From assembly GCA_945890645.1 (NCBI GenBank), contig CAMDCV010000023.1:1-64000 (forward strand): 64,000 nt of DNA, given 5' to 3'. Origin of the DNA: Akkermansia muciniphila (GTDB lineage Bacteria > Verrucomicrobiota > Verrucomicrobiia > Verrucomicrobiales > Akkermansiaceae). Each line of letters begins with the position of its first letter. The stretch's first letter is position 1. The position numbers and the translations under genes are program-made. The notes beneath the pieces are model-generated. The model did no database searches, was not told where the DNA came from, and was given only the letters and a program-made list of their open reading frames with translations. Shown piece after piece: positions 12,882 to 25,485 of the stretch.

Positions 12882-13112
12882 TTACGGCCACCATCGGAAA
12901 AACCGGATGAGGCTGTGCCAAGCTTCATCCCCTACCTTAGCCGCGTAAAAGCTAATCGCGAAGGACACCGCGGCCCAGACCGCAATTCCTGTGAGTAATC
13001 CCCATGAATCAATAACTCGAACAACACCCAGCGCTGCGATGAATCCAAAGAACAGAAACGCGCAAACAAATCTAATCCAAAATTCTAATCGATCTTGGGG
13101 AGGATCGCTCAT
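12882..13112 (-). CDS. Small two-helix membrane protein, unknown
   Basis: With the start at MSDPPQDRLEFWIRFVC (ATG 13112) the product has 76 residues; an ATG at 13160 would add 16 residues. Two hydrophobic segments are visible (about 12-30 and 36-54), then a short polar tail ending in RFFRWWP. It resembles small uncharacterised membrane proteins of Verrucomicrobiota, but no family was recognised. It lies between the respiratory operon and the MoxR operon on the same strand, with gaps of over 100 bases on both sides, and may be transcribed alone. Confidence 0.6.
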   Translation of the reverse strand: MSDPPQDRLEFWIRFVCAFLFFGFIAALGVVRVIDSWGLLTGIAVWAAVSFAISFYAAKVGDEAWHSLIRFFRWWP

Positions 13113-13237
13113 GACTCTAAAAGGGCATAGATTACGGAACTGGGAAGGCTCACGATTCATGATTCACCCGAACAGATCACGCGGCACGCTAGCAATTTCT
13201 TCCATAGTGCGCCTTACCAATCAACCACAAGCGAAAA

Positions 13238-14020
13238 TTACTTCGCTGCAGCGGGCTTGAAGGTGATCGGGTCGACAAGAGTCGTGGGATCCATTTTATC
13301 ACCGGGCAGATCTTTTTCATGACCTTTCAATTCATCCGCTGTGACGGGTGCAGCAGGATTGGGACGCTTGGCGGCAATGTCGATCGCAGCCTGCGCCATC
13401 TCGGGCGTCACAACATCTCCCACGCTATTGCCGAAGCTATTGCGAATGAACGTCATGATGAAAGCCAAGTCCTGCGCACTCATGCCGGCACCCTGAGCGG
13501 GCATAACGCCTGCACCATAGACTTTACCGGTGCTGGTAGGACCTTGCAAACCATTGAGAATCACTTGGGAAAAACGATCAGTGTGACCTGTGGACCAGGC
13601 CGACCCTACCAAAGAAGGATAATTTGCACCGTCGCCTTTGCCGTCTGCACCGTGGCAACCATTGCATTTCGCGCTGTAGAGCGATTGACCTTTTTTCACA
13701 TAGACATCGAGAATCGCTTTCGGTGGCATAACCACATCATCCACCACGCCCGGAGCTTTACCACGAACGTAGTTTGGCTTGATCGAGGCATCATAATCAA
13801 ACAAGGCACCCGAAGTTTTGCCGAGAACCGAGCCGCCGATGATCAGCATCACTGCGCAGAGTGCGAAAGCTGCAATCGAAAGCGGTTCTTTGTCGACACC
13901 CGGATTGCGGAATTCACGTGCGGCAGCGGCGGTAGCATTGCTGCTGTGGGCGCTCGTTACGTTCATCACGTCGTCCAGATCAGGGCGATCGGTGGGAGTG
14001 GGATAAGAGTCTTGTGACAT
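13238..14020 (-). CDS. Membrane-anchored monohaem cytochrome c (last gene of the respiratory operon)
   Basis: This 260-residue protein has a polar N-terminus, one membrane anchor near residues 48-68, and a C-terminal class I cytochrome c domain with one haem motif CNGCH near residue 118 and a plausible axial methionine in GVMPAQG. The helix FIRNSFGN is shared with the cytochrome encoded at 16334, so the two are probably paralogues. The haem faces the periplasm. The position after ccoN- and ccoO-like genes suggests a CcoP-like electron carrier, but a second haem, usual in CcoP, is missing. No Shine-Dalgarno sequence precedes the start. Confidence 0.88.
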   Translation of the reverse strand: MSQDSYPTPTDRPDLDDVMNVTSAHSSNATAAAAREFRNPGVDKEPLSIAAFALCAVMLIIGGSVLGKTSGALFDYDASIKPNYVRGKAPGVVDDVVMPPKAILDVYVKKGQSLYSAKCNGCHGADGKGDGANYPSLVGSAWSTGHTDRFSQVILNGLQGPTSTGKVYGAGVMPAQGAGMSAQDLAFIMTFIRNSFGNSVGDVVTPEMAQAAIDIAAKRPNPAAPVTADELKGHEKDLPGDKMDPTTLVDPITFKPAAAK

Positions 14021-14058: not shown

Positions 14059-14772
14059 TTATTTCTCAGCTGGCTTAGGCGGTGAATAATTCATCGAGGC
14101 CGGCACGGCATCGTTTTTCTTCATCGACATCAGATAGCCAACCAAGGCGCGGGCTTCCGCCTTCGGCGCGGGAATCTCGCCCTTGATTTTGGATTTTTCA
14201 AACAAAAATCGCAGTGATGGGCAAGTGGACCAGCGCATTTCTACACGATAGCGTGGATCGTAGAGATGCTCATACAACATCTCTTCCGGCGTGACTTTCA
14301 TCGCATCGTTCCAAGCATCGCCCAGCTCTTCCTTACGGGCCGTATTTTTTGCAATCGCAGCTTTTTCATAGCGCGAACCGACATTCGAGAGGTCAGGGCC
14401 AATGCGCATTACACCGATTTGCGCGAACTCCTCGCCTTGGTAGTCGAAGACATTCGATTCACGACGCGTGTCACCACGATCGGGATCTGCCTTAAAGCCA
14501 GCCCAGCCATCTCGGTGGAAATCATTGCCCGCATAGGTTGGACGCACGACTTGGGTGTGGCAAACGTAGCATCCGTTCTGTGCATAGACCTTCGCACCAT
14601 TGGTGATCTGGCCGGTGCGTTTGGGGAAATAGACACCTGTTTTTCCATCGAGCGCCTCGACGTAGGGCACGGGTTCGATCGTACGCGTTTTGAAAAATGG
14701 CAGCACCACAGCGAACAGCCATGCTGAGCCGAAGGTGACCGTCATACCCAAAGTAAAGAAGCGAAGAGTCAT
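14059..14772 (-). CDS. ccoO: CcoO-like monohaem cytochrome c subunit (cbb3 oxidase subunit II type)
   Basis: The 237-residue protein has an N-terminal membrane helix (about 8-27) and a periplasmic haem domain. The haem motif sits in NGCYVCHTQVVRPTYAG, the classical CcoO context CxxCHxQxxRP. RESNVFDYQGEEFAQIG and MRIGPDLSNVG follow, the latter corresponding to the R-x-G-P-D-L-x-x-V-G block with nearby methionines for the axial ligand. In cbb3 oxidases CcoO passes electrons to the catalytic subunit CcoN. Here the partner CcoN-like protein lacks the catalytic ligands, so this subunit may serve as an electron conduit only. Start is clear; length is typical. Confidence 0.85.
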   Translation of the reverse strand: MTLRFFTLGMTVTFGSAWLFAVVLPFFKTRTIEPVPYVEALDGKTGVYFPKRTGQITNGAKVYAQNGCYVCHTQVVRPTYAGNDFHRDGWAGFKADPDRGDTRRESNVFDYQGEEFAQIGVMRIGPDLSNVGSRYEKAAIAKNTARKEELGDAWNDAMKVTPEEMLYEHLYDPRYRVEMRWSTCPSLRFLFEKSKIKGEIPAPKAEARALVGYLMSMKKNDAVPASMNYSPPKPAEK

Positions 14773-14803: not shown

Positions 14804-16303
14804 TTAGTGAGCGATCACAGAACCGGGACCAGCGTTGTCGATGTCCCCTTCAGGGCCGTGCGGATTTTCCAGATGCGCATGTCCGAGCAAGGTCGGGTGC
14901 GAGGAACGACGACCGAGACGCATCCACATCAACAACAGATGCACGCAGAAAAAGAAATTCGAGAACAACACGAAGCACCATGCGATCAGAGTAGCGATCA
15001 GATACGGGTAGGCGCGTGCGACAGCATTGTCCCAAGGGAATTTGAAATCCTCCTGGCCTTGACCGTGCAAGAGACCACCCAGCACAGCAAGGACCGCGAT
15101 GGTGACCACGCCATACATCGAAAACAAGAAGTGCATGTTGATCAGGCGCTTCGAAAGCCACTCACGACGCGTCACGCGTGGCACGATGAAATACATCGCA
15201 CCAAACATTACGAAGCTGAAGCAACCGTAGATCGCTAGGATGTCCATGCCGTAGGTAGTGATGCTGAACTGTGTGAGTTGCAGTGTGGAATCAGGCAAGT
15301 TGATGAACACGCTAGAGACGCCCAAGAGCAACATGCACACCACGCCAGTAGCGGAGAAGCGCAAGGCAGGACTCGAGGCGAATTTTTCCGGACTGCCAAA
15401 CATCGTGCGCAAAGTGCTGATGGCGATGGCAACTGTTGGCACTCCAATCAACACCGCAGCAGCGGCGCCCAAATAGGGAAGGAAATAAGGAATCGGTGCC
15501 CCTGCCAACTTCTGCATGCCCGCCCAAGGGCCAACGATGGCAAGAGTCCAGAAGCCGATCAACGACAGTGAATAGCTGTGCACGGGGCGCCCCGTGATTT
15601 TCGGTGCGAGATAGTAAGCAGCGGCGGCAGCGGTCGGCAGGAAAAATAAGAAGATCAGGCCCGAGCGGAACCAAGCAGCGACCCCCGCGGACATCAGTGG
15701 ATTGCCACCGACCACAAAAATCAAAGCAAAGGCCGTGGCAACGATCCAGGGAAACCAGATCATGGCGCCCACAGCGAACCACTGCGAAACGTAAACTTCA
15801 CCCGGAGTGCGGACGCGGAATTGGATCATCGTCCAAATGGCAATCAACCCGTAGGCAGCCAATAAGCCCGGCCACACCATCGAGGGAAATTCCATCCATG
15901 GCACACCTGTGCCGTAGCCGAGAAGAATCGCGAGTGTGCCGACGGCCACCACTAAGTTCCATGCGTGACCCGCGGTCAGGATGATTCCCGACGCGCGGTT
16001 TTCCTGACGGGTCAAACGCGATACCAACCAAATCAAAACACCGAAAGCCGCTTGGCAGCCCCAGCCATAAACTAAAGTCGAGATATGAGCGGCAAACACC
16101 CGCCCTTGTGTCAAAAGTGGACAACCGTCGAGAAACTCCGGCGCGACCATTTTGGCCATGGCCAGAATTCCCAAAATCAGGGAAACGGCCAGCCACACGG
16201 CACCACTGGTGAAAAAGAACATGACTGGATGACGCAGCGAACGGTCGATCGCCGTGCGGAGGATCGCGTCTTGTTCTGCGGATGATTTGGAATCGGTTGA
16301 CAT
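14804..16303 (-). CDS. CcoN-like haem-copper oxidase subunit I lacking the catalytic ligands
   Basis: The 499-residue protein has about twelve membrane helices and aligns with CcoN, the catalytic subunit of cbb3 oxidases. It keeps H73 (GRVFAAHISTLVYGW, matching the first low-spin haem ligand), but the other ligands are gone. The CuB motif W-Y-G-H-N reads WFRSGLIF here. The CuB His pair in GPHHLHYT reads GPWAGMQKL. The haem ligands in HVHAGALGW fall in SITTYGMDILAIYG. It should therefore not reduce oxygen, nor bind haem b3 or CuB, and probably lacks low-spin haem too. The reading frame is intact and hydrophobicity is conserved, so this is a maintained protein rather than a pseudogene. A structural or docking role in the ACIII chain is an inference. 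Confidence 0.85.
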   Translation of the reverse strand: MSTDSKSSAEQDAILRTAIDRSLRHPVMFFFTSGAVWLAVSLILGILAMAKMVAPEFLDGCPLLTQGRVFAAHISTLVYGWGCQAAFGVLIWLVSRLTRQENRASGIILTAGHAWNLVVAVGTLAILLGYGTGVPWMEFPSMVWPGLLAAYGLIAIWTMIQFRVRTPGEVYVSQWFAVGAMIWFPWIVATAFALIFVVGGNPLMSAGVAAWFRSGLIFLFFLPTAAAAAYYLAPKITGRPVHSYSLSLIGFWTLAIVGPWAGMQKLAGAPIPYFLPYLGAAAAVLIGVPTVAIAISTLRTMFGSPEKFASSPALRFSATGVVCMLLLGVSSVFINLPDSTLQLTQFSITTYGMDILAIYGCFSFVMFGAMYFIVPRVTRREWLSKRLINMHFLFSMYGVVTIAVLAVLGGLLHGQGQEDFKFPWDNAVARAYPYLIATLIAWCFVLFSNFFFCVHLLLMWMRLGRRSSHPTLLGHAHLENPHGPEGDIDNAGPGSVIAH

Positions 16304-16333: not shown

Positions 16334-17125
16334 TTATTTCGGCGCTTTGAGGTCGCTGACCTTGAGTGCAGGCCGTCCGACTTCACCGCGATAGGCTTTG
16401 ACTTGATCAGCAGTCACGGCCGATGCTTTATTGCCGAAGGAGTTGCGGACATAGGTAAGAGTGGCAGCAACTTGGTCATCCGTGAGGTGAGCCAAGGGAG
16501 CCATGGCCAGCGGTAAATTGTAGTCGACACCATTCACGCTAATCGGACCTTCCAGACCGCGAAGCACGATGCGGATCGGGTTTTCGACAGGGCCTACGAC
16601 CCACTCAGAATTCGCAAGTGGCGGAGCCAAACCAGGAACGCCGGCACCTTCGGGTCCGTGGCAGGCCATGCACAGCGCGTATTGCGCTTTGCCAGCATCC
16701 ATAACCGCGGGGTCGATTGGTGCATTCGGATCTGTTTCTACGATGACCACAGGAGCGGCATTCGCAGCAGCGGCTTCATTTGCTTTCGCCGTGGCAGAAC
16801 CAGGAATGACTTGCTCTGGTTTTTCTACGGCAGTGGGTTTGGTAGCCGCGAGTTCTTTACCCAGATGGGCAAACACATCCTGCGGTTTCACCTGAACGGT
16901 TTTGCCAGCTTCGATTTCTTTGTAGGTCAAATTCGCGGATTGTGCGGCTTCGACTTTGGCGCGGTTTTCATAACGAATCACCGCTGCTTGGTCTTCCAAG
17001 GTTTTCGGTTCCTTCTTTTCCAGCAAAGCAATAACGCCCAAAGCAATGCCGAATAAGGCGAACAGAGCCAAGGCCCAGAAAAAGGCTTTGAAGCGAACGA
17101 TAGGGTTGTCTTGTGACGGGTCCAT
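16334..17125 (-). CDS. Membrane-anchored monohaem cytochrome c between actF and ccoN-like genes
   Basis: This 263-residue protein has one N-terminal membrane helix near residues 13-33, an Ala/Pro/Lys-rich linker (about 90-130), and a class I cytochrome c domain with haem motif CMACH near residue 152 and PLAMAPLAHL containing a possible axial methionine. The TYVRNSFGN helix matches the cytochrome encoded at 13238. Such cytochromes commonly link alternative complex III to an oxidase. The gene is 21 bases from actF and 30 from the ccoN-like gene, so it is clearly in the operon. The leader is pyrimidine-rich with no Shine-Dalgarno sequence. Confidence 0.9.
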   Translation of the reverse strand: MDPSQDNPIVRFKAFFWALALFALFGIALGVIALLEKKEPKTLEDQAAVIRYENRAKVEAAQSANLTYKEIEAGKTVQVKPQDVFAHLGKELAATKPTAVEKPEQVIPGSATAKANEAAAANAAPVVIVETDPNAPIDPAVMDAGKAQYALCMACHGPEGAGVPGLAPPLANSEWVVGPVENPIRIVLRGLEGPISVNGVDYNLPLAMAPLAHLTDDQVAATLTYVRNSFGNKASAVTADQVKAYRGEVGRPALKVSDLKAPK

Positions 17126-17146: not shown

Positions 17147-18601
17147 TTAGTTGGTGAGATTCGCCGATTCCAAGATGCGGGGATCGCGATGCGGATAAAG
17201 TGCGTGCTGACCGAGAGCGCGCAAGAAGAAGAACAAGAAGCCGGCTCCAATGGTGACAAAAGCAAGAATATCGCCCAACCACGCACCTTTGATCGTGACG
17301 GCGATATCGCCGAAAGTTGCATGATCGATGTTACCCAGTGAAATACCGCGCTCGGGAATGACGATGAGGTAGAGATCGAGAACGTGCACGAGCATCATGT
17401 AAATTGCTACCGCGCTGAGCAGATACGGCTTCTTCTTGAGCCATTGTTGCAACAGCACCACGAAAGGCAATACGAAGTGCAAGATCACCAAGGCGATGCT
17501 GGCGACGTTCCAGCCCTCCGTGTTACGGATGAAGAAGTATTTTGTTTCCTCGGGAATGTTCGCATACCAGATCAGGAAGTACTGCGAGAAAGTTACGTAA
17601 GCCCAGAATACCGTAAAGGCGAAGAGCAGCTTGCCCATGATGTGGAAGTGTTCTTGGCTGACGACATGTTTCAGATAGCCCGCACGACGAAGTAAGAATA
17701 CGGTAACGATGATCACGGCCATCGAGTTGATCGCGCAACCAGCGAATATGTAAACGCCATACATCGTTGAGAACCAGGTGTAGTCCATGCCTTTCAACCA
17801 ATCGAACGCAGCAAAGGTCACAGTCAGCGCGAGGATGGGCAGGAACGCAGCAGCACGACGACGGGCGGTAAACAAATGCACTGTGCCGGGTTTGGGATCG
17901 TTGTCTTGAGCAGTCGAGAGCTTGCGCAAACGATAGATGGCATAACCCAGGCCCACGAAGAACATGATATTGCGGAAATACCAGAACGGCAAGTTCATGT
18001 ACCATAGCTTGTTATACATCAGGTGATCCTTGTGATGTAAACCTTGAGCTATGGCTTGGTCATGAGGGTTTGCATTGAATTCACCAGCGTCGGTAAAGAT
18101 AGAAGTTACTGCCCATAAAATAAATTTCACTCCATTGAGGACCCAATTCCATACTCCAGCGAGCCATTCACCGACAAGAGTACCAATACCGATATTCTTC
18201 TCATTGATTACGTCGTGGTGAGTATTCATCCACTCGTAGAGGTAGTGTTGCACGTTCGGGCAAAGAAGAGGAATCGCGAAAATGCTGAGCCACGGAAATA
18301 CTGAACCGAGGTTTTCCATCACACGGCGCACGCTCGTACCCCAACCGCTGTTAGAAACATTGTGCAGTAAGGTCCAGAAGCAACCACCGAGGGCGAGAGT
18401 AAAGAAATAAAACAGCGCAAAGACCCAAGAATACGCGAAGCTCCCCTGCTGTACTTTGGGCGCGAAAAACAAGAAATAGACGCTCAGCAAGCCGCCCATC
18501 ACCATCACGGCCAGCGCGATCGTTTTGACTTTGCCAATCTTGGATTGATCCAAGTGCTCGCCGTTTTCAGGAATGTCGTGGGATGTGACGTGGTGTGCCA
18601 T
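17147..18601 (-). CDS. actF: Alternative complex III subunit ActF (multi-pass membrane protein)
   Basis: ActF is one of the two large membrane subunits of ACIII, the quinol:cytochrome c (or direct-to-oxidase) reductase that replaces the bc1 complex. This 484-residue protein has about ten hydrophobic helices and the family stretches FYFFTLALGGCFWTLLHNVSNSGW near residues 47-70 and FTVFWAYVTFSQYFLIWYANIPEET near 310-335. The His-rich start MAHHVTSHDIPENG is cytoplasmic. It lies in the standard act gene order, 26 bases after actE. ActF is related to ActC/NrfD-type proteins but is considered not to bind quinol at the same site. Confidence 0.93.
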   Translation of the reverse strand: MAHHVTSHDIPENGEHLDQSKIGKVKTIALAVMVMGGLLSVYFLFFAPKVQQGSFAYSWVFALFYFFTLALGGCFWTLLHNVSNSGWGTSVRRVMENLGSVFPWLSIFAIPLLCPNVQHYLYEWMNTHHDVINEKNIGIGTLVGEWLAGVWNWVLNGVKFILWAVTSIFTDAGEFNANPHDQAIAQGLHHKDHLMYNKLWYMNLPFWYFRNIMFFVGLGYAIYRLRKLSTAQDNDPKPGTVHLFTARRRAAAFLPILALTVTFAAFDWLKGMDYTWFSTMYGVYIFAGCAINSMAVIIVTVFLLRRAGYLKHVVSQEHFHIMGKLLFAFTVFWAYVTFSQYFLIWYANIPEETKYFFIRNTEGWNVASIALVILHFVLPFVVLLQQWLKKKPYLLSAVAIYMMLVHVLDLYLIVIPERGISLGNIDHATFGDIAVTIKGAWLGDILAFVTIGAGFLFFFLRALGQHALYPHRDPRILESANLTN

Positions 18602-18627: not shown

Positions 18628-19332
18628 TTATTTGGAGCTAGTGGCGGCTTCTTGTTGTTGCTTACCGGCTTCGAAGGCGTCTTTGACCGCATCGTACGGT
18701 GCGCTGCGTGCGACTTGGATCGCGCGAACGTAAGCGATGATCGCCCAGCGGTCGCGCACAGGGATGTTATAACCATAACCAGACATGAGCCCTTTACCTT
18801 TCGTAATGGTTTCAAACAGGCGACCATCGGGATAAGAACCCGCGGAGAATGGTGGCGCTGTGAGATTTGCGATGCCCGGCACGCCATAAAGCCCTGTGAT
18901 GCCCGCACCATCGCCGGAAACACCGTGGCATGCAGAGCAATAAATATTGTAGCGCTCTTCACCGCGCTTGAGCAGTTCCAAGGAATTTTCTGGAGTGAGT
19001 TCCAATTCTTCCGGCATGCCCGTGCCGAAATAATCACCTACGTGGCCAGTGAAATAATAACCAGTGCCACCGGAAAACTCATACTCAGGAATGCCACCCA
19101 GCTTGTTCGCGCCATCAACTTGAAATCCAAGCGGTGTAGTTTGTGTCACTGGTTGACGAGCCCCCTGCCCATCGGCGAAAAAGGCGCTTTGTTTTTGTGC
19201 TTTCAACACATCCTGGTCATCCATGTCTGGAAGTAATTGAATGGGCGGCTCGCTGAAGCTGTGTCCGCGGTATTTGAAAATACCGACCACGGAAATGGCG
19301 ATGATCGCGTAGAGAATAAAAAAGTATTTCAT
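18628..19332 (-). CDS. actE: Alternative complex III subunit ActE (monohaem cytochrome c)
   Basis: This 234-residue protein is the monohaem cytochrome c subunit of ACIII, anchored by an N-terminal helix (residues 2-20) with the haem domain in the periplasm. The motif CSACH lies near residue 133 in RYNIYCSACHGVSGDG. LMSGYGYNIPVRDRWAIIAYVRA gives the axial methionine and the C-terminal helix typical of ActE. A PDMDDQ motif near residue 36 and the FSGGTGYYF region also fit. It takes electrons from the pentahaem ActA/ActB side and passes them to the downstream carrier. Order and spacing in the operon are standard. Confidence 0.93.
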   Translation of the reverse strand: MKYFFILYAIIAISVVGIFKYRGHSFSEPPIQLLPDMDDQDVLKAQKQSAFFADGQGARQPVTQTTPLGFQVDGANKLGGIPEYEFSGGTGYYFTGHVGDYFGTGMPEELELTPENSLELLKRGEERYNIYCSACHGVSGDGAGITGLYGVPGIANLTAPPFSAGSYPDGRLFETITKGKGLMSGYGYNIPVRDRWAIIAYVRAIQVARSAPYDAVKDAFEAGKQQQEAATSSK

Positions 19333-19351: not shown

Positions 19352-19909
19352 TTACGCAGGTTCCTCCTCAATGAGTTCAATGCTAGTGCCGCCAATATCC
19401 CCAAGGAAATCCTTGGTGCCAGTTGCAGAAAACTTCGGATCACGCGCTTCGAGGGCGATGAAAAATCCATCGTCGGTCGAGCGTTCAAACTGCTTACTCG
19501 CAAAAAGTGGATGATTGAAACGGGGCAGTTTCATCAGCGCCAACAACCCGAACAGTGTCGTGAAGCCCGAAAACAAAATCGTCAACTCGAACATGATGGG
19601 GAAAAACGCCGGCAGGGTGAAAAAGTTTGTCGGTTTGCCCTGCACCACGGTTGGATACAAATACACTTGCGTCGTGTAGGCGAGCAAGAAGGCCGTGATC
19701 GTGCCCGTCATACCGCCGAAGAACACCATGTAGGGAAGGATCGAACGCTTCAATCCCATGGCTGCATCGAGACCGTGAATTGGATAGGGCGAGTAGCAAT
19801 CCCACTTGGTGAAACCGGCATCGCGCACTTTTTCCGCCGCTTTATACAGCGCCGAGGCACTCTTGAACTCAGCAAGATAACCGTAAACTCTTTTCCGTGT
19901 TGTGCTCAT
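19352..19909 (-). CDS. actD: Alternative complex III subunit ActD (DUF3341)
   Basis: ActD is a small membrane subunit of ACIII with two transmembrane helices. The 185-residue product shows the DUF3341 layout: an N-terminal cytoplasmic domain starting VYGYLAEFKSASALYKAAEK with the conserved YSPYPIHGLDAAMG near 38-51, helices near 59-80 and 95-125, and a C-terminal alpha/beta tail with RSTDDGFFIALEARDP. The YSPYPIHGL motif is the best family marker. It lies 20 bases after actC. Confidence 0.94.
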   Translation of the reverse strand: MSTTRKRVYGYLAEFKSASALYKAAEKVRDAGFTKWDCYSPYPIHGLDAAMGLKRSILPYMVFFGGMTGTITAFLLAYTTQVYLYPTVVQGKPTNFFTLPAFFPIMFELTILFSGFTTLFGLLALMKLPRFNHPLFASKQFERSTDDGFFIALEARDPKFSATGTKDFLGDIGGTSIELIEEEPA

Positions 19910-19929: not shown

Positions 19930-21423
19930 TCAGACCGTCGTTCCTTTGTCCGTGGTTTCGGGCAGTTCGTGCTGGTAAGCCGCGATTTTCACCGTGCCGT
20001 CATCAGGATGATCGTTGAGGTCATCGAAGTGCGGATCCGATTCGCGCAACGTCCACTTGACCTCGGCGATGTTGATGCAGGGAAGGAATTTCAGGAACAA
20101 CAAGAACAGCATCAGGAACATGCCGATCGTGCCGACAAACAAAATAATCTCGAAAGGACTGGCGGAGTAGTATTTCCAATCACCTGGCAGCCACATCCGC
20201 GCGAGCGTGGTGCAAATAATCACAAAGCGCTCGAACCACATGCCGACGTTTACCGCCATCGATACTGCCATGATTACCCAGAGGTTTTCGCGGCATTTCT
20301 TGAACCAGAAAACCTGTGGCGAAAGAACGTTGCAGGACATCATCGCGAGATAGGCCCACCAATACGGACCAGTCATACGATACTTGAACGCTTCCATTTC
20401 ATAAATGGCACCGGAGTAATACGCGACGAACAACTCCATCAAATAGGCGTAACCAACGATCGTGCCAGTCAACAAAATGATCTTCGCCATGTTCTCGATG
20501 TGCTTCATCGTGATCATGTCGTGCAGACCATAAATCGCCCGCGCCGGAATCATGATCGTGAGAACCATTGCGAAACCACCGAACACCGCACCTGCGACGA
20601 AATAAGGCGGGAAAATCGTGGTGTGCCAACCGGGAACCACGGAGGTGGCGAAGTCGAACGAAACGACTGAGTGAACCGAAAGCACCAGCGGGGTGGAAAG
20701 AGCCGCGAGCAAGAGGTATGCCATTTCATAGTGGCTCCACTGACGGTTGCCACCGCGCCAGCCGAGGGCGAAAATCCCGTAGAGCATCTTGCGCAAGCCG
20801 GGCTTCGCACGGTCGCGGATCGTGGCGAGGTCGGGCACCATGCCGAGGAACCAGAAAATCAAAGACACGGTAAAGTAAGTCGAAACCGCGAACACGTCCC
20901 ACAGCAGCGGCGACTTGAAGTTTTGCCAAATGCCATTCGCATTCGGAATCGGCGCGAGGAACCAGGCCATCCACACACGACCGACGTGGAAGGCCGGGAA
21001 AATACCGGCACAGCACACCGCGAAAATCGTCATCGCCTCCGCCGCGCGGTTGATGGACGTCCGCCAATTTTGTCGAGTGAGGAAAAGAATCGCGGAAATC
21101 AACGTGCCCGCGTGACCGATACCGATCCAGAACACGAAGTTGGTGATGTCCCAACCCCAGAACACCGTATTGGTCATGCCCCACACACCGACACCCGTCG
21201 ATACCAAGAGCGTCAGGCCACCGCCTACACCGAGCATGGCGATCAGCGCACTCGGGATAAACAAAATCCACCACAACAGCGGTTGTTTGTTTTCGACGAT
21301 GCCGCAGATGCGCTCCGTGATCCAATGGTAGGAACGGTTATTGAGAATCAGATGCTCGCGCTCCAAGACGGGCAATTTCGGACCGTTTCGTGGTTCGTGA
21401 GCGGTGGTGCTAGCGTGTGCCAT
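19930..21423 (-). CDS. actC: Alternative complex III subunit ActC (NrfD/PsrC family, quinol-binding)
   Basis: ActC belongs to the NrfD/PsrC membrane proteins and holds the likely quinol-oxidising site of ACIII at the periplasmic side. The 497-residue protein has about ten membrane helices, with family features such as [19 protein letters not shown] near residues 100-118, [20 protein letters not shown] near 140-160 and [26 protein letters not shown] near 255-280. Histidines in GHAGT and PGWHTT are conserved in the family. It is long-spaced from actB (36 bases) with a pyrimidine-rich leader. The C-terminal acidic tail is cytoplasmic. Confidence 0.94.
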
Positions 21424-21459: not shown

Positions 21460-24400
21460 TTAGGCCATGTGGATCGTGGCGGTTCCGACATACTTGGCGT
21501 CCGGCATTTTCTCGTTCGGATTCTTGACGCGTGCCATGTAAAGCGTGCGCGGAATCGTGGCGATGTAATGAAGGAGTTCGTAGCTGCGAGCGAGCTCACG
21601 ACCGCGCACCACAGTGGCGGCGCTTTCATCGAGCAAGTTGCCAAAGCTAATCGCATCGGCAGGACAGGCCTCTTGGCAAGCGACCTTGACGCTATCGACG
21701 GGAATGCGCAGCGTCTTGGTGGTGACGGCGACTTCAGGAGATGTCTTGCCGGAGGCGAGGACGTCCTGTTTCTGACCGCGCTTTTGACGGATCTTCGCGT
21801 CTTTGAGGCGCTGCACGCAATAGGTGCATTTTTCCATGACACCACGCATGCGGACGGTGACGTTCGGATTGCGCTGCAAGTGCGGAGCTTCGCCGACTTG
21901 AGTCACGCCCGCAGGGCCTTTGTAAAGGTTGTCGGCGATCAGCGGGTTGCGTTTGTTGTAATCGAAATAGTTGAAACGACGTGCTTTATAAGGGCAGTTG
22001 TTAGCGCAGTAACGAGTGCCGATGCAACGGTTGTACGCCATGGCGTTGAGGCCGTCTTCGGTGTGAATTGTGGCGTTGACGGGGCAAACCGTTTCGCAAG
22101 GCGCGCTCTCGCACTGCATACAGGCGACAGGCTGCGGCACCATCGCGGGGCTATCGGCATCGAAAGTGTTGTCTTTGTTCTGCGCGAAGTAGCGGTCCAT
22201 GCGGATCCAGTGCATCGCACGACCCATCGCCACTTGCTTCTTACCGACGACAGGAATGTTATTCTCCGCTTGGCACGCTACCAAGCAAGCATTGCAACCC
22301 ATGCAGGACGACAAATCGATATTCATCGCCCACTGATGCAAGTCATCGCTGAGGTGCGGTTTGGCTTTGCCCTCTTTATCGGGATCCCAAGTAGCGGAGC
22401 CTTCTTGTTTGTAGAGCGAAAGGTTGGCCGGGGCATGAGAGTCGTTGCCTTGCTTCTGCACGCCGTCGTATTGCTTGTCGAACGAACCCTTGTCGCCTTT
22501 CAGCGTGGAAATTTCGCGGGCCAATGAACGACCGTACATCGCGTGGTGCTCTTGTGTGAGAGCGACGGAGTAACGCTTCTCCGTGAGAGTTACTTTTGCG
22601 CCTTGTGCGATGTAGGTTGTCGCCGCAGTGCGGAGCGGATAGACATTCACACCGCGATTGACGCCCACCAAGCCAACGTGTGTGGCATTCACAGGACCGC
22701 GTGCGAGTTCGTCTTCATCATCGTAGCCTTGGCCGTAACCGACAGGCAGCACAATGGTATTTTCTGCTAGACCGAATGCCACCAATACGGGGATTTCAAT
22801 CTCCTTGCCATTGAGCGAAAGTTTGATGATGGGTGATTTGCGATTGCCTGCTTCGCCATCGACAGGACTAGCGGCACGGGGACTTTCCAGCGCAATGACT
22901 TGATCGTAAATGCCAAGTGCCTTCGCGGTTTTCGGCGCGATCAACGCGGCATTATCCCACGTCAATTTCGAAATCGGATCCGGCGACTCTTGAAGCCAGG
23001 CATTGTCGATCCAGCGACCGTCATAGATCGAACCATCGGTGGAGAAAATCACGTCGAGGCTTTGCTCGGTCGCGGCTTGGTAGTTGACTGCGGTTGCCTC
23101 AGGTGCTGTCAAAGTGCCAGTTTGTGCCGTACCGGCGAGGAAACCTTCGCGCAAGGCTTTTTTCCATGTGACATCGTCACCGGTGAAAGTCTTGCGAACC
23201 GCTGCAAAGGCAGCGGATTCTTCGCCCGTGATGAGCTTGCCATCGAGCAAAGCGGAAAGCAGTTCCAGTTCGGAAACACACTCGTCATAAAGCGGCAAAA
23301 TCATCGGCTGGATCAGCGTGTGTAGGCCCGACGCCGAGCGGGCGTCCGACCAGCTTTCAAGGTAATGCGCTGCCGGAATGTGCCAAGTGGCCGCGTGGGC
23401 AGTGGCATCGGTGCGCAGACCGAGATGGAAGCTGCCCTTTGCCTTTTGCAATGACGTAATGAAATCGAGATCGGCGGGAGCATCGAAGACAGGATTCGCG
23501 GGAGTCAGTAGAGCCACATATTCCACCGCGCCGCTCTCGATATCAGCTTTCAGAGCCGCGATGTCAGCGAAGCCAGCGTTGTCGGATTGCAAGGCAAGGA
23601 GAGTCGTTCCGACCGCGCCAAGTGTTTCATTGATCGCGTACACGATTGCTTTCAAGGCAGGAGAAGTGCGCGAACCAGCCAGCGCCAGTGCTTTGCCTTT
23701 CGAGGCCAACAAGTCATCCGCAGCGGCATCGACCCACTGTTGGATTTGGGAATCGGTAATCGCAGCGGCGGAGCTGATGAGTGGGTGCGAAACATTCAGT
23801 TTGCTAGCAACAGCAGCCGCGATGCTGATAACCTTGCTCGGCTCAATGCGCAAGCGGTGATCCGCCATGCCGCCGGTCAGACTAAAAATACTTTCCACCG
23901 CATAAAGACGATTCATCGCAGCGACATCGCGTTTGGCTTTGTAGCCTTTGCCCTCGGGCTTGCGGCGGTCGAAGAATGGTGTGACGGGACCTTGCGGGTC
24001 GAGCGATGCGAAATCGCAATCAAAGGAAATGATGCGGTCGGCCTTGGCGAAGTCTGCCACGGCGCGCGCAGCCGTTGCCGATGGGGCGAGTGGCTCGTAG
24101 GAGTAGAATTTTGCGCCAGCAAATTTGCCAACAAGCTCTTTCGATAAGCGAGTGCGGGTCGGCGACTCATCAGCTCCGAAAAGGAAGCCAATTTTGCCAG
24201 AGGTAGCCGCTTCTGCGAGTGCAGCTTCGAGGTCAGCCTTGGTGGAGGCTTTCGCGTGATGCAAAATTTTCTGCGAACGCGACGGCGAATACATATCGAG
24301 AATCGACGCCTGCACAAAAGCATCGGTGCCGTCTGAATCAGGATGCAAGGTATTCGGTCCGAGCTTGGTCGGACGGCCTTCAAACGTCGTCACTACAACA

Positions 24401-24744
24401 GGCGTTGCACCCGTAGCGCGTGGCATGGCCGAAGCATAATAAAGCGCTTTGCCCGGAATCACCCACTCGGGGGCTTGGGTGTAAGGAACCGTGTACTTTT
24501 CCGCACGACGGCAAGCCACCATGCTCATACCCGCGAGAGCCGAGGAGGCGCCCATCAGTTTAAGGAAAGAACGACGCGAGGTCTCAGCATCCGCTGCGTC
24601 CGCCATCGCGGCTGCGCTTGCGGGAAATTCGCGATCCATGTACTCACGGAAAACGGGGCTGCCTTCGAGCTGCCCGACGCTGCGCCAGGATACCGTGGTT
24701 TCCTCCGCTGGGATTTCTGGATGTTGCCAAATGCGTTTGCTCAT
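21460..24744 (-). CDS. actB: Alternative complex III subunit ActB (fused molybdopterin-like and Fe-S domains)
   Basis: This 1094-residue protein fuses a molybdopterin-oxidoreductase-like domain (about 70-770) with a ferredoxin-like domain (about 800-1090), as in ActB. A twin-arginine motif SRRSFLKL at residues 56-63, after the usual 50-residue extension, should direct export through Tat. The C-terminal part has four cysteine groups: CMGCNACLVACQAEN, CMQCESAPCETVC, CIGTRYCANNC and CTYCVQRL with CQEACPAD. In known ACIII structures the large domain carries no molybdenum cofactor and the Fe-S clusters form an electron wire. A long opposite-strand open frame over this gene is a shadow. Confidence 0.95.
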   Translation of the reverse strand: MSKRIWQHPEIPAEETTVSWRSVGQLEGSPVFREYMDREFPASAAAMADAADAETSRRSFLKLMGASSALAGMSMVACRRAEKYTVPYTQAPEWVIPGKALYYASAMPRATGATPVVVTTFEGRPTKLGPNTLHPDSDGTDAFVQASILDMYSPSRSQKILHHAKASTKADLEAALAEAATSGKIGFLFGADESPTRTRLSKELVGKFAGAKFYSYEPLAPSATAARAVADFAKADRIISFDCDFASLDPQGPVTPFFDRRKPEGKGYKAKRDVAAMNRLYAVESIFSLTGGMADHRLRIEPSKVISIAAAVASKLNVSHPLISSAAAITDSQIQQWVDAAADDLLASKGKALALAGSRTSPALKAIVYAINETLGAVGTTLLALQSDNAGFADIAALKADIESGAVEYVALLTPANPVFDAPADLDFITSLQKAKGSFHLGLRTDATAHAATWHIPAAHYLESWSDARSASGLHTLIQPMILPLYDECVSELELLSALLDGKLITGEESAAFAAVRKTFTGDDVTWKKALREGFLAGTAQTGTLTAPEATAVNYQAATEQSLDVIFSTDGSIYDGRWIDNAWLQESPDPISKLTWDNAALIAPKTAKALGIYDQVIALESPRAASPVDGEAGNRKSPIIKLSLNGKEIEIPVLVAFGLAENTIVLPVGYGQGYDDEDELARGPVNATHVGLVGVNRGVNVYPLRTAATTYIAQGAKVTLTEKRYSVALTQEHHAMYGRSLAREISTLKGDKGSFDKQYDGVQKQGNDSHAPANLSLYKQEGSATWDPDKEGKAKPHLSDDLHQWAMNIDLSSCMGCNACLVACQAENNIPVVGKKQVAMGRAMHWIRMDRYFAQNKDNTFDADSPAMVPQPVACMQCESAPCETVCPVNATIHTEDGLNAMAYNRCIGTRYCANNCPYKARRFNYFDYNKRNPLIADNLYKGPAGVTQVGEAPHLQRNPNVTVRMRGVMEKCTYCVQRLKDAKIRQKRGQKQDVLASGKTSPEVAVTTKTLRIPVDSVKVACQEACPADAISFGNLLDESAATVVRGRELARSYELLHYIATIPRTLYMARVKNPNEKMPDAKYVGTATIHMA

Positions 24745-24771: not shown

Positions 24772-25485
24772 TTAATGGTGGCAGCTGGTGCAGGTCTCAC
24801 GCGGCTGGAGTTTGAAAACATCGGTGAGTTTTTTGCCAAACTCTTTTGGATCGCTGATGCGCTCGCCTTTATCGTTCAGCACAACTTGCTGCTTCAAGTA
24901 TTCCGCAGGGTCGTATTTCAAATTATACACTTCCTCAAGCGGACGCACATGAGTCTCCGGTGCGCGGTGGCAATCGAGGCAGAAGCCCATCGAGTGCGGT
25001 TTAGCATGATAGACGACCTCCATTTGATCGACTTGACCGTGGCAGCTGACACAAGAAATACCGCGGTTGACGTGCGCGCTGTGGCTGAATTTCACGTAGT
25101 CGGGTGCCTTGTGAACTTTCACCCACTGGATGGGCTTGCCGTCGTAGAGCGGATGCGTTTTGTCCATCGCGCGGTGCAAGGGTTCCAGTTTCGGACTGTC
25201 CCTGCGCACGTGTTGGTGGCAGTTCCAGCAAGTGTTCGCCGATGGCAAATTCGAGTGGTCGGAATTGTCCACAAACGAATGGCAATAACGGCAATCAAGG
25301 CCGAGCTGATCGACGTGGATTTTGTGCGAAAATGGGATCGGTTGGGACGGTTGATAGCCGACCACGGTCGCCTTAGGAGTAGCATAAACCGTGAAAGCGG
25401 CGACTACGCCAACGGCAGCAGTTCCAGCGCAAAATGCGATTTTCAACGGTAACAGGTTGGTCCAGCGAGGAAAAATATTGGCCAT
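24772..25485 (-). CDS. actA: Alternative complex III subunit ActA (pentahaem cytochrome c)
   Basis: The 237-residue protein carries five CxxCH motifs (CRYCH, CWNCH, CVSCH, CLDCH, CTSCH), the haem number of ActA. An N-terminal helix (about 13-32) anchors it in the membrane, with the haems in the periplasm. Family stretches include QPIPFSHKIHVDQLGLDCRY and VKFSHSAHVNRGISC, whose extra histidines are likely axial ligands. It is the first gene of the operon, and its start at 25485 (MANIFPRWTNLLPLK) has no Shine-Dalgarno sequence. A palindrome of CRP type lies 30-49 bases upstream. Confidence 0.95.
   Translation of the reverse strand: MANIFPRWTNLLPLKIAFCAGTAAVGVVAAFTVYATPKATVVGYQPSQPIPFSHKIHVDQLGLDCRYCHSFVDNSDHSNLPSANTCWNCHQHVRRDSPKLEPLHRAMDKTHPLYDGKPIQWVKVHKAPDYVKFSHSAHVNRGISCVSCHGQVDQMEVVYHAKPHSMGFCLDCHRAPETHVRPLEEVYNLKYDPAEYLKQQVVLNDKGERISDPKEFGKKLTDVFKLQPRETCTSCHH

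Follow-up and report, generated by a model that had tools for sequence, protein, structure and literature searches.

A cbb3-like subunit I in the ACIII operon of Verrucomicrobiota that has lost most of its metal ligands and is retained under selection

The window (the whole 64,000-nucleotide stretch of DNA that was analysed) carries an ACIII operon on its minus strand, in the order ActA, ActB, ActC, ActD, ActE, ActF, a mono-haem cytochrome c, the CcoN-like gene N, the CcoO-like gene O and a further mono-haem cytochrome c. As the first-pass annotation had proposed, N belongs to this operon, with ActA-F upstream on the same strand, and it is thus encoded where an ACIII component would be expected.

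24772..25485, minus strand: ActA, multihaem cytochrome c
21460..24744, minus strand: ActB, molybdoenzyme-like and Fe-S domains
19930..21423, minus strand: ActC, NrfD family
19352..19909, minus strand: ActD (PF11821)
18628..19332, minus strand: ActE, mono-haem cytochrome c
17147..18601, minus strand: ActF, without a Pfam match, assigned from position and conservation across loci
16334..17125, minus strand: cytX, mono-haem cytochrome c of 263 aa, between ActF and N
14804..16303, minus strand: N, CcoN-like subunit I of 499 aa, retaining one of six metal ligands (PF00115, PDB matches, alignments, structure model)
14059..14772, minus strand: O, CcoO-like mono-haem cytochrome c of 237 aa, with CXXCH but with Cys184 in place of the axial Met
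13238..14020, minus strand: cytP, mono-haem cytochrome c of 260 aa

A membrane-like ORF of 92 aa without a family match lies directly downstream of the operon (window positions 12882-13160, minus strand).

The reading frame of N (14804-16303, minus strand) was uninterrupted across all 499 aa, in agreement with the earlier description of an intact frame. N matched PF00115 (COX1) with an E-value of 5e-40, and its sequence relatives in the PDB were CcoN chains only (five CcoN sequences, E 8e-21 to 3e-13). The AlphaFold (AF2) model had a pLDDT of 85.7 and superposed on P. stutzeri CcoN (3mk7) with a Z-score of 45.8 and an rmsd of 2.4 over 446 aligned residues at 21% identity. The PF00115 match and the model comparison with 3mk7 both gave the 12-helix haem-copper oxidase fold, and, as modelled, N is a full-length CcoN fold. 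The curated ccoN equivalog profile TIGR00780 scored N at only 80.8 bits against a cut-off of 583.

Ligand positions were assigned from a MAFFT alignment with 3mk7 and the same genome's own CcoN. They were checked a second time with an HMM profile of 34 relatives, which was gap-free at the ligand positions against 3mk7 and 9g6b. The codons concerned are as follows.

16085..16087, minus strand: H73, equivalent to P. stutzeri H60 (low-spin haem b), the sole ligand kept
15662..15664, minus strand: S214, at the position of CuB ligand H207
15509..15514, minus strand: Q264-K265, at the positions of CuB ligands H257-H258
15239..15247, minus strand: M353-D354-I355, at the positions of H345 (haem b3) and H347 (haem b)

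Both alignments placed H73, S214, Q264, K265, M353 and I355 of N at P. stutzeri H60, H207, H257, H258, H345 and H347, respectively, so the assignment does not hinge on a single aligner. All three CuB ligands are absent (S214, Q264, K265), as are the haem b3 ligand H345 and one member of the low-spin pair H60/H347, leaving H60 alone. The three His of the FeB site of nitric oxide reductase (NorB) are lacking as well, because the same three residues occupy the metal-B His positions. The cross-linked Tyr (Y251) corresponds to G258, and the conserved Glu E323 is likewise lost. The two independent alignments also ruled out that other His residues of N occupy the ligand positions. The first-pass annotation, which had listed exactly these five losses from three motif comparisons and had named H73 as the only remaining ligand, was therefore correct in each of these points when compared with 3mk7 and 9g6b. 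N shares with cbb3 CcoN (3mk7) the overall fold, a CcoO-like partner gene and the retained H60, but it lacks H207, H257, H258, H345, H347, Y251 and E323 and scores far below the ccoN cut-off. We filed N as a variant within the haem-copper oxidase superfamily and not as a CcoN oxidase.

N was matched in 55 of the 57 related genomes, nearly all by a strong same-family match; G010 and G011 gave no N match, and G038 gave a weak fragment match only. Across the class, 93 of 141 genomes were matched at E 1e-30. ACIII-adjacent homologs were found in the majority of class genomes, cultivated type strains included, and named records with N include the type strains Luteolibacter marinus, Haloferula rosea, Persicirhabdus sediminis and Rubritalea marina. 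The ACIII-N-O arrangement was present at every locus with enough flank. Many class genomes without a match belong to one genus of the window's own family (g3, 2.2-3.5 Mb). This genus, probably Akkermansia, lacked N in all sampled genomes (e.g. G011 and G074).

In the comparison below, N is called intact where the ligand His are kept (L066, with five of six, was grouped with the intact forms) and dead where the catalytic-site ligands are lost. N was dead at all named loci checked and in all relatives from the window's family and order, so the loss is common to these relatives. Members of the window's family kept H60 alone, and more distant dead forms often kept none of the ligands. The low-spin pair H60 and H347 alone was kept in L062, L063 and L069 (family f14) and in L051, which indicates that a haem-b-only stage exists after loss of the active site. 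All six His were kept at 17 ACIII-operon loci, all outside the window's order. Intact relatives retained Y251, while position 323 was mostly Gln. L066 kept five of the six ligands (HRHHHH) in the same ACIII operon; its first CuB His is changed to Arg (L066:7581-9053), possibly an early stage of inactivation.

In G063 (1.7 Mb, 99% complete), the intact N was the only haem-copper oxidase, and no cytochrome bd oxidase was found. Judged from this gene content, the intact form very probably functions as an oxidase. As for dead N, another high-scoring haem-copper oxidase was present in 60 of 60 genomes examined. The window's genome encodes an A-type CoxA (contig C1) and a fused CcoNO (C25) with all ligands intact, and thus has separate complete oxidases. 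Three further haem-copper-like proteins were observed in the survey. Two Opitutaceae-like genomes (family f16) whose ACIII-locus N is dead encode an extra CcoN-like protein at a second locus that includes a cytochrome c gene (L137:7549-9405 and L138:7924-9564, both on the minus strand), with the motif GYYMHQGVG, six His and Gln at 323. In four stretches from other classes of the phylum (L222-L225), a CcoO-like gene accompanies a CcoN-like protein that is intact and unfused (motif WFYVHNAVG, Gln at 323), and ActA-F were not detected in these stretches. A 429-aa frame at G057:C53:33406-34137 gave a very weak PF00115 match (39 bits) and is perhaps another degenerate haem-copper protein.

The partner O matched PF02433 with 35.8 bits and has the N-terminal helix and the CXXCH haem c motif, the latter kept at 105/105 loci. 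Met is the established axial haem ligand in CcoO. The first-pass annotation had described O as a normal CcoO-like haem subunit, but the residue at this position is Cys.

14221..14223, minus strand: Cys184 codon of O, in place of the CcoO axial Met (STCPS where CcoO has SxMPx)

The Cys was placed on the Met of the SxMP motif in the alignment to P. aeruginosa CcoO, and it was found in O of every window-family member. The same change occurred separately in the unrelated dead-N lineage f30 (L100, L104, L118), and other dead-N rows carried M, H, S, A or R at the axial position. At the intact-N loci the axial Met was kept in 18 of 18. His/Cys haems c are usually of low potential, so O in the window's family may not relay electrons. 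The exchange suggests that, in this family at least, the haem of O no longer belongs to the high-potential relay.

How often the oxidase was inactivated was read from two kinds of tree. The ActC tree is unaffected by changes within N itself. In it, intact and dead forms were interleaved, with 11 changes by Fitch parsimony and 17 losses when regain was forbidden (bootstrap range 16-19). The full N tree, on the other hand, put all dead forms in one clade with a single change. Taken at face value, that tree would mean a single ancient inactivation, after which transfer or replacement by paralogues carried the dead copies into other lineages; the present-day protein would be the same and its history different. 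However, dead rows have long branches in the full N tree, and dead L073 shared 49-51% identity with the intact forms of its family and no more than 41% with any other dead row compared. Dead L076 was similarly 47% identical to intact L066 of the same family. When dead clades were added to N trees one at a time, they attached to separate intact families: L073 within intact f16 (support 99), L076 with L066 (98), the dead rows of f30, L086 and L116 with L064/L071 (98, 93 and 97), and the window's order inside the intact L059-L080 group (100). An AU test on a reduced set, where parsimony gave 4 changes, rejected one dead clade (p 0.024). Moreover, no genome combined a dead N with an intact one at ACIII loci (matches at E 1e-30). 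We therefore read the single dead clade as long-branch attraction and consider one inactivation unlikely. The N data by themselves point to four or more losses that occurred independently; their precise count is uncertain, and gene replacement may apply in some cases.

This history bears on the suggestion of the first-pass annotation that N is a new type of respiratory part. That N is conserved and non-catalytic stood. The same locus holds an intact CcoN in other families, so N is better described as a recurrently inactivated oxidase than as a part with a single origin.

For the present-day function, one alternative is that N still holds one haem, by H73 or jointly with a new partner, and conducts electrons inside the ACIII assembly without reducing O2. 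The invariance of H73 in the window's family despite the loss of H347 would fit such a conduit, as would the haem-b-only forms of f14 and L051 described above. On the other hand, the window's family has no conserved His placed as a second axial ligand. Counted from the II-III loop, the newly invariant H113 is about 11 residues away on helix III and H73 about 29 on helix II, which would set the two apart; a new H73-H113 haem pair is thus unlikely by the helix geometry of the model. H391 is conserved in catalytic CcoN too, and H60 has also been lost in many dead lineages. A conduit is therefore doubtful. Slightly less probable still is that the retained CcoN fold provides ACIII with a path for protons, a site for quinol or a coupling element. 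Such a role could make use of the retained 12 helices and of the invariant polar residues K235, Y244, R315, Y371 and E381, but the key C-family residues Y251 and E323 are gone, and the other invariant residues are common to intact members and may be structural.

Pairwise dN/dS of N was 0.05-0.09 in the window's genus, similar to that of ActE/F and O, and 0.05-0.13 across this genus, the f12 pair L095-L097, f14 and f3. It was raised in some dead lineages (f30 dead N 0.27-0.35, f16 dead N 0.33), indicating weaker constraint there. Open homologs, 90-36% identical, occur in nearly all relatives, including cultivated type strains, which rules out a sequencing error or a lone pseudogene. N is thus not a pseudogene and is under purifying selection. 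A decaying oxidase gene kept by operon linkage alone, as the faster evolution of dead than intact forms in f30 and f16 might suggest, is very improbable given frames open class-wide, the low dN/dS elsewhere and the retention of N after the loss throughout the window's order.

The gene layout bears on the preferred reading, that of a non-catalytic scaffold. The usual layout of relatives was ActABCDEF-cyt c-N-O-cyt c-CoxA, with CoxA in the same stretch as N at about 110 loci (some represented twice), mostly 1.3-2.6 kb apart. Downstream of CoxA come a cox3-like gene and then other cox genes, and a CuA-type CoxB was read from sequence motifs in L132. In Luteolibacter marinus, the cox3-like protein carries a long hydrophilic insert and is 550 aa in total (L156:10985-12637). 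In the window's genus, CoxA is on another contig, away from N, and CoxA was not found in the retrieved stretch of the dead lineages L083, L076, L093 and L085. Intact L059, L065 and L075 also have an adjacent CoxA. Strict coupling of inactivation to CoxA adjacency was therefore rejected, and any bridging to CoxA is not tied to adjacency.

We consider N to be a pseudo-oxidase, namely a cbb3-like subunit I of the ACIII operon that in this lineage no longer carries out O2 chemistry and persists in the membrane as a non-catalytic subunit (probability about 0.6). Among the mechanisms weighed, a non-catalytic scaffold is the best supported, with the haem-b conduit, the proton or quinone role and the relic less likely. 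N would anchor O and the cytochrome c domains in the membrane, and its module would bridge ACIII to the A-type oxidase in a putative ACIII-N-O-CoxA complex; catalysis would have been handed to CoxA, and the cbb3 core turned into a scaffold. A docking or scaffold role is plausible.

A special case is family f12, in which pmoA-type genes were found in 11/11 genomes tested. Because of these genes and its small genomes, f12 is very likely Methylacidiphilaceae. At most one ligand His remains in its N (SESHFV, ADAHQT). In four f12 genomes, motifs assigned the remaining haem-copper genes to CoxA (two genes), a ba3-like type (one or two) and a NorB-like type (one); an intact C-type oxidase was not found in these four. 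The ACIII-adjacent gene of verrucomicrobial methanotrophs has been described as a cbb3 terminal oxidase (PMC6688271, PMC8498564, PMC11102522), and one paper ties the methanotroph cbb3 to high O2 affinity (PMC6688271, PMC8498564). By its ligand residues, this high-affinity cbb3 appears to be one of the dead N forms, and the cbb3 assignment in verrucomicrobial methanotrophs is worth revisiting.

That ACIII lies beside a C-type oxidase in Opitutaceae and verrucomicrobial methanotrophs was already known, as stated in a passage of PMC8498564 that cites Refojo et al. 2010. Locus and gene family are the same as those of N, and the intact class members are probably this published oxidase. It was counted as a terminal oxidase, whereas the window's order and the pmoA-bearing genomes carry ligand-less forms. 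Supercomplexes of ACIII with A-type oxidases are known from R. marinus (ACIII-caa3, PMC5928083) and F. johnsoniae (ACIII-aa3, described in PMC8361435), and direct electron transfer from ACIII to the oxidase has been proposed or shown in these systems (PMC5928083, PMC8361435). As in the relatives studied here, their ACIII genes adjoin an A-type oxidase; unlike the loci here, no CcoN/O-like module is described for them. ActB of ACIII, which is not known to carry a molybdenum cofactor, offers another parallel. Like N, it is a large subunit, homologous to another enzyme family's catalytic subunit, that was kept (PMC5928083). It differs in belonging to another superfamily and in being universal in ACIII, while N was found here only in this class. 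In the open-access literature, we found no earlier description of a ligand-less CcoN in ACIII operons.

The wider proposal, to which we give even odds, is that the catalytic subunit of an oxidase has turned, several times and independently, into a stable, non-catalytic part of ACIII-oxidase supercomplexes across the class, with convergent replacement of the partner's axial ligand by Cys, and that this forms a new module between quinol oxidation and O2 reduction. The intact, haem-b-only and dead forms at one locus are natural replicates for the non-catalytic needs of a respiratory complex, and the N system makes the architecture of ACIII supercomplexes testable. Subunit I of haem-copper oxidases is usually taken as a firm sign that an organism respires O2 (or NO); as this widespread, selected family is unable to reduce O2, annotation overstates terminal oxidases in Verrucomicrobiota. 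Many Verrucomicrobiota thus keep an oxidase subunit under strong selection after all or nearly all of its metal ligands were lost, probably as a structural part.
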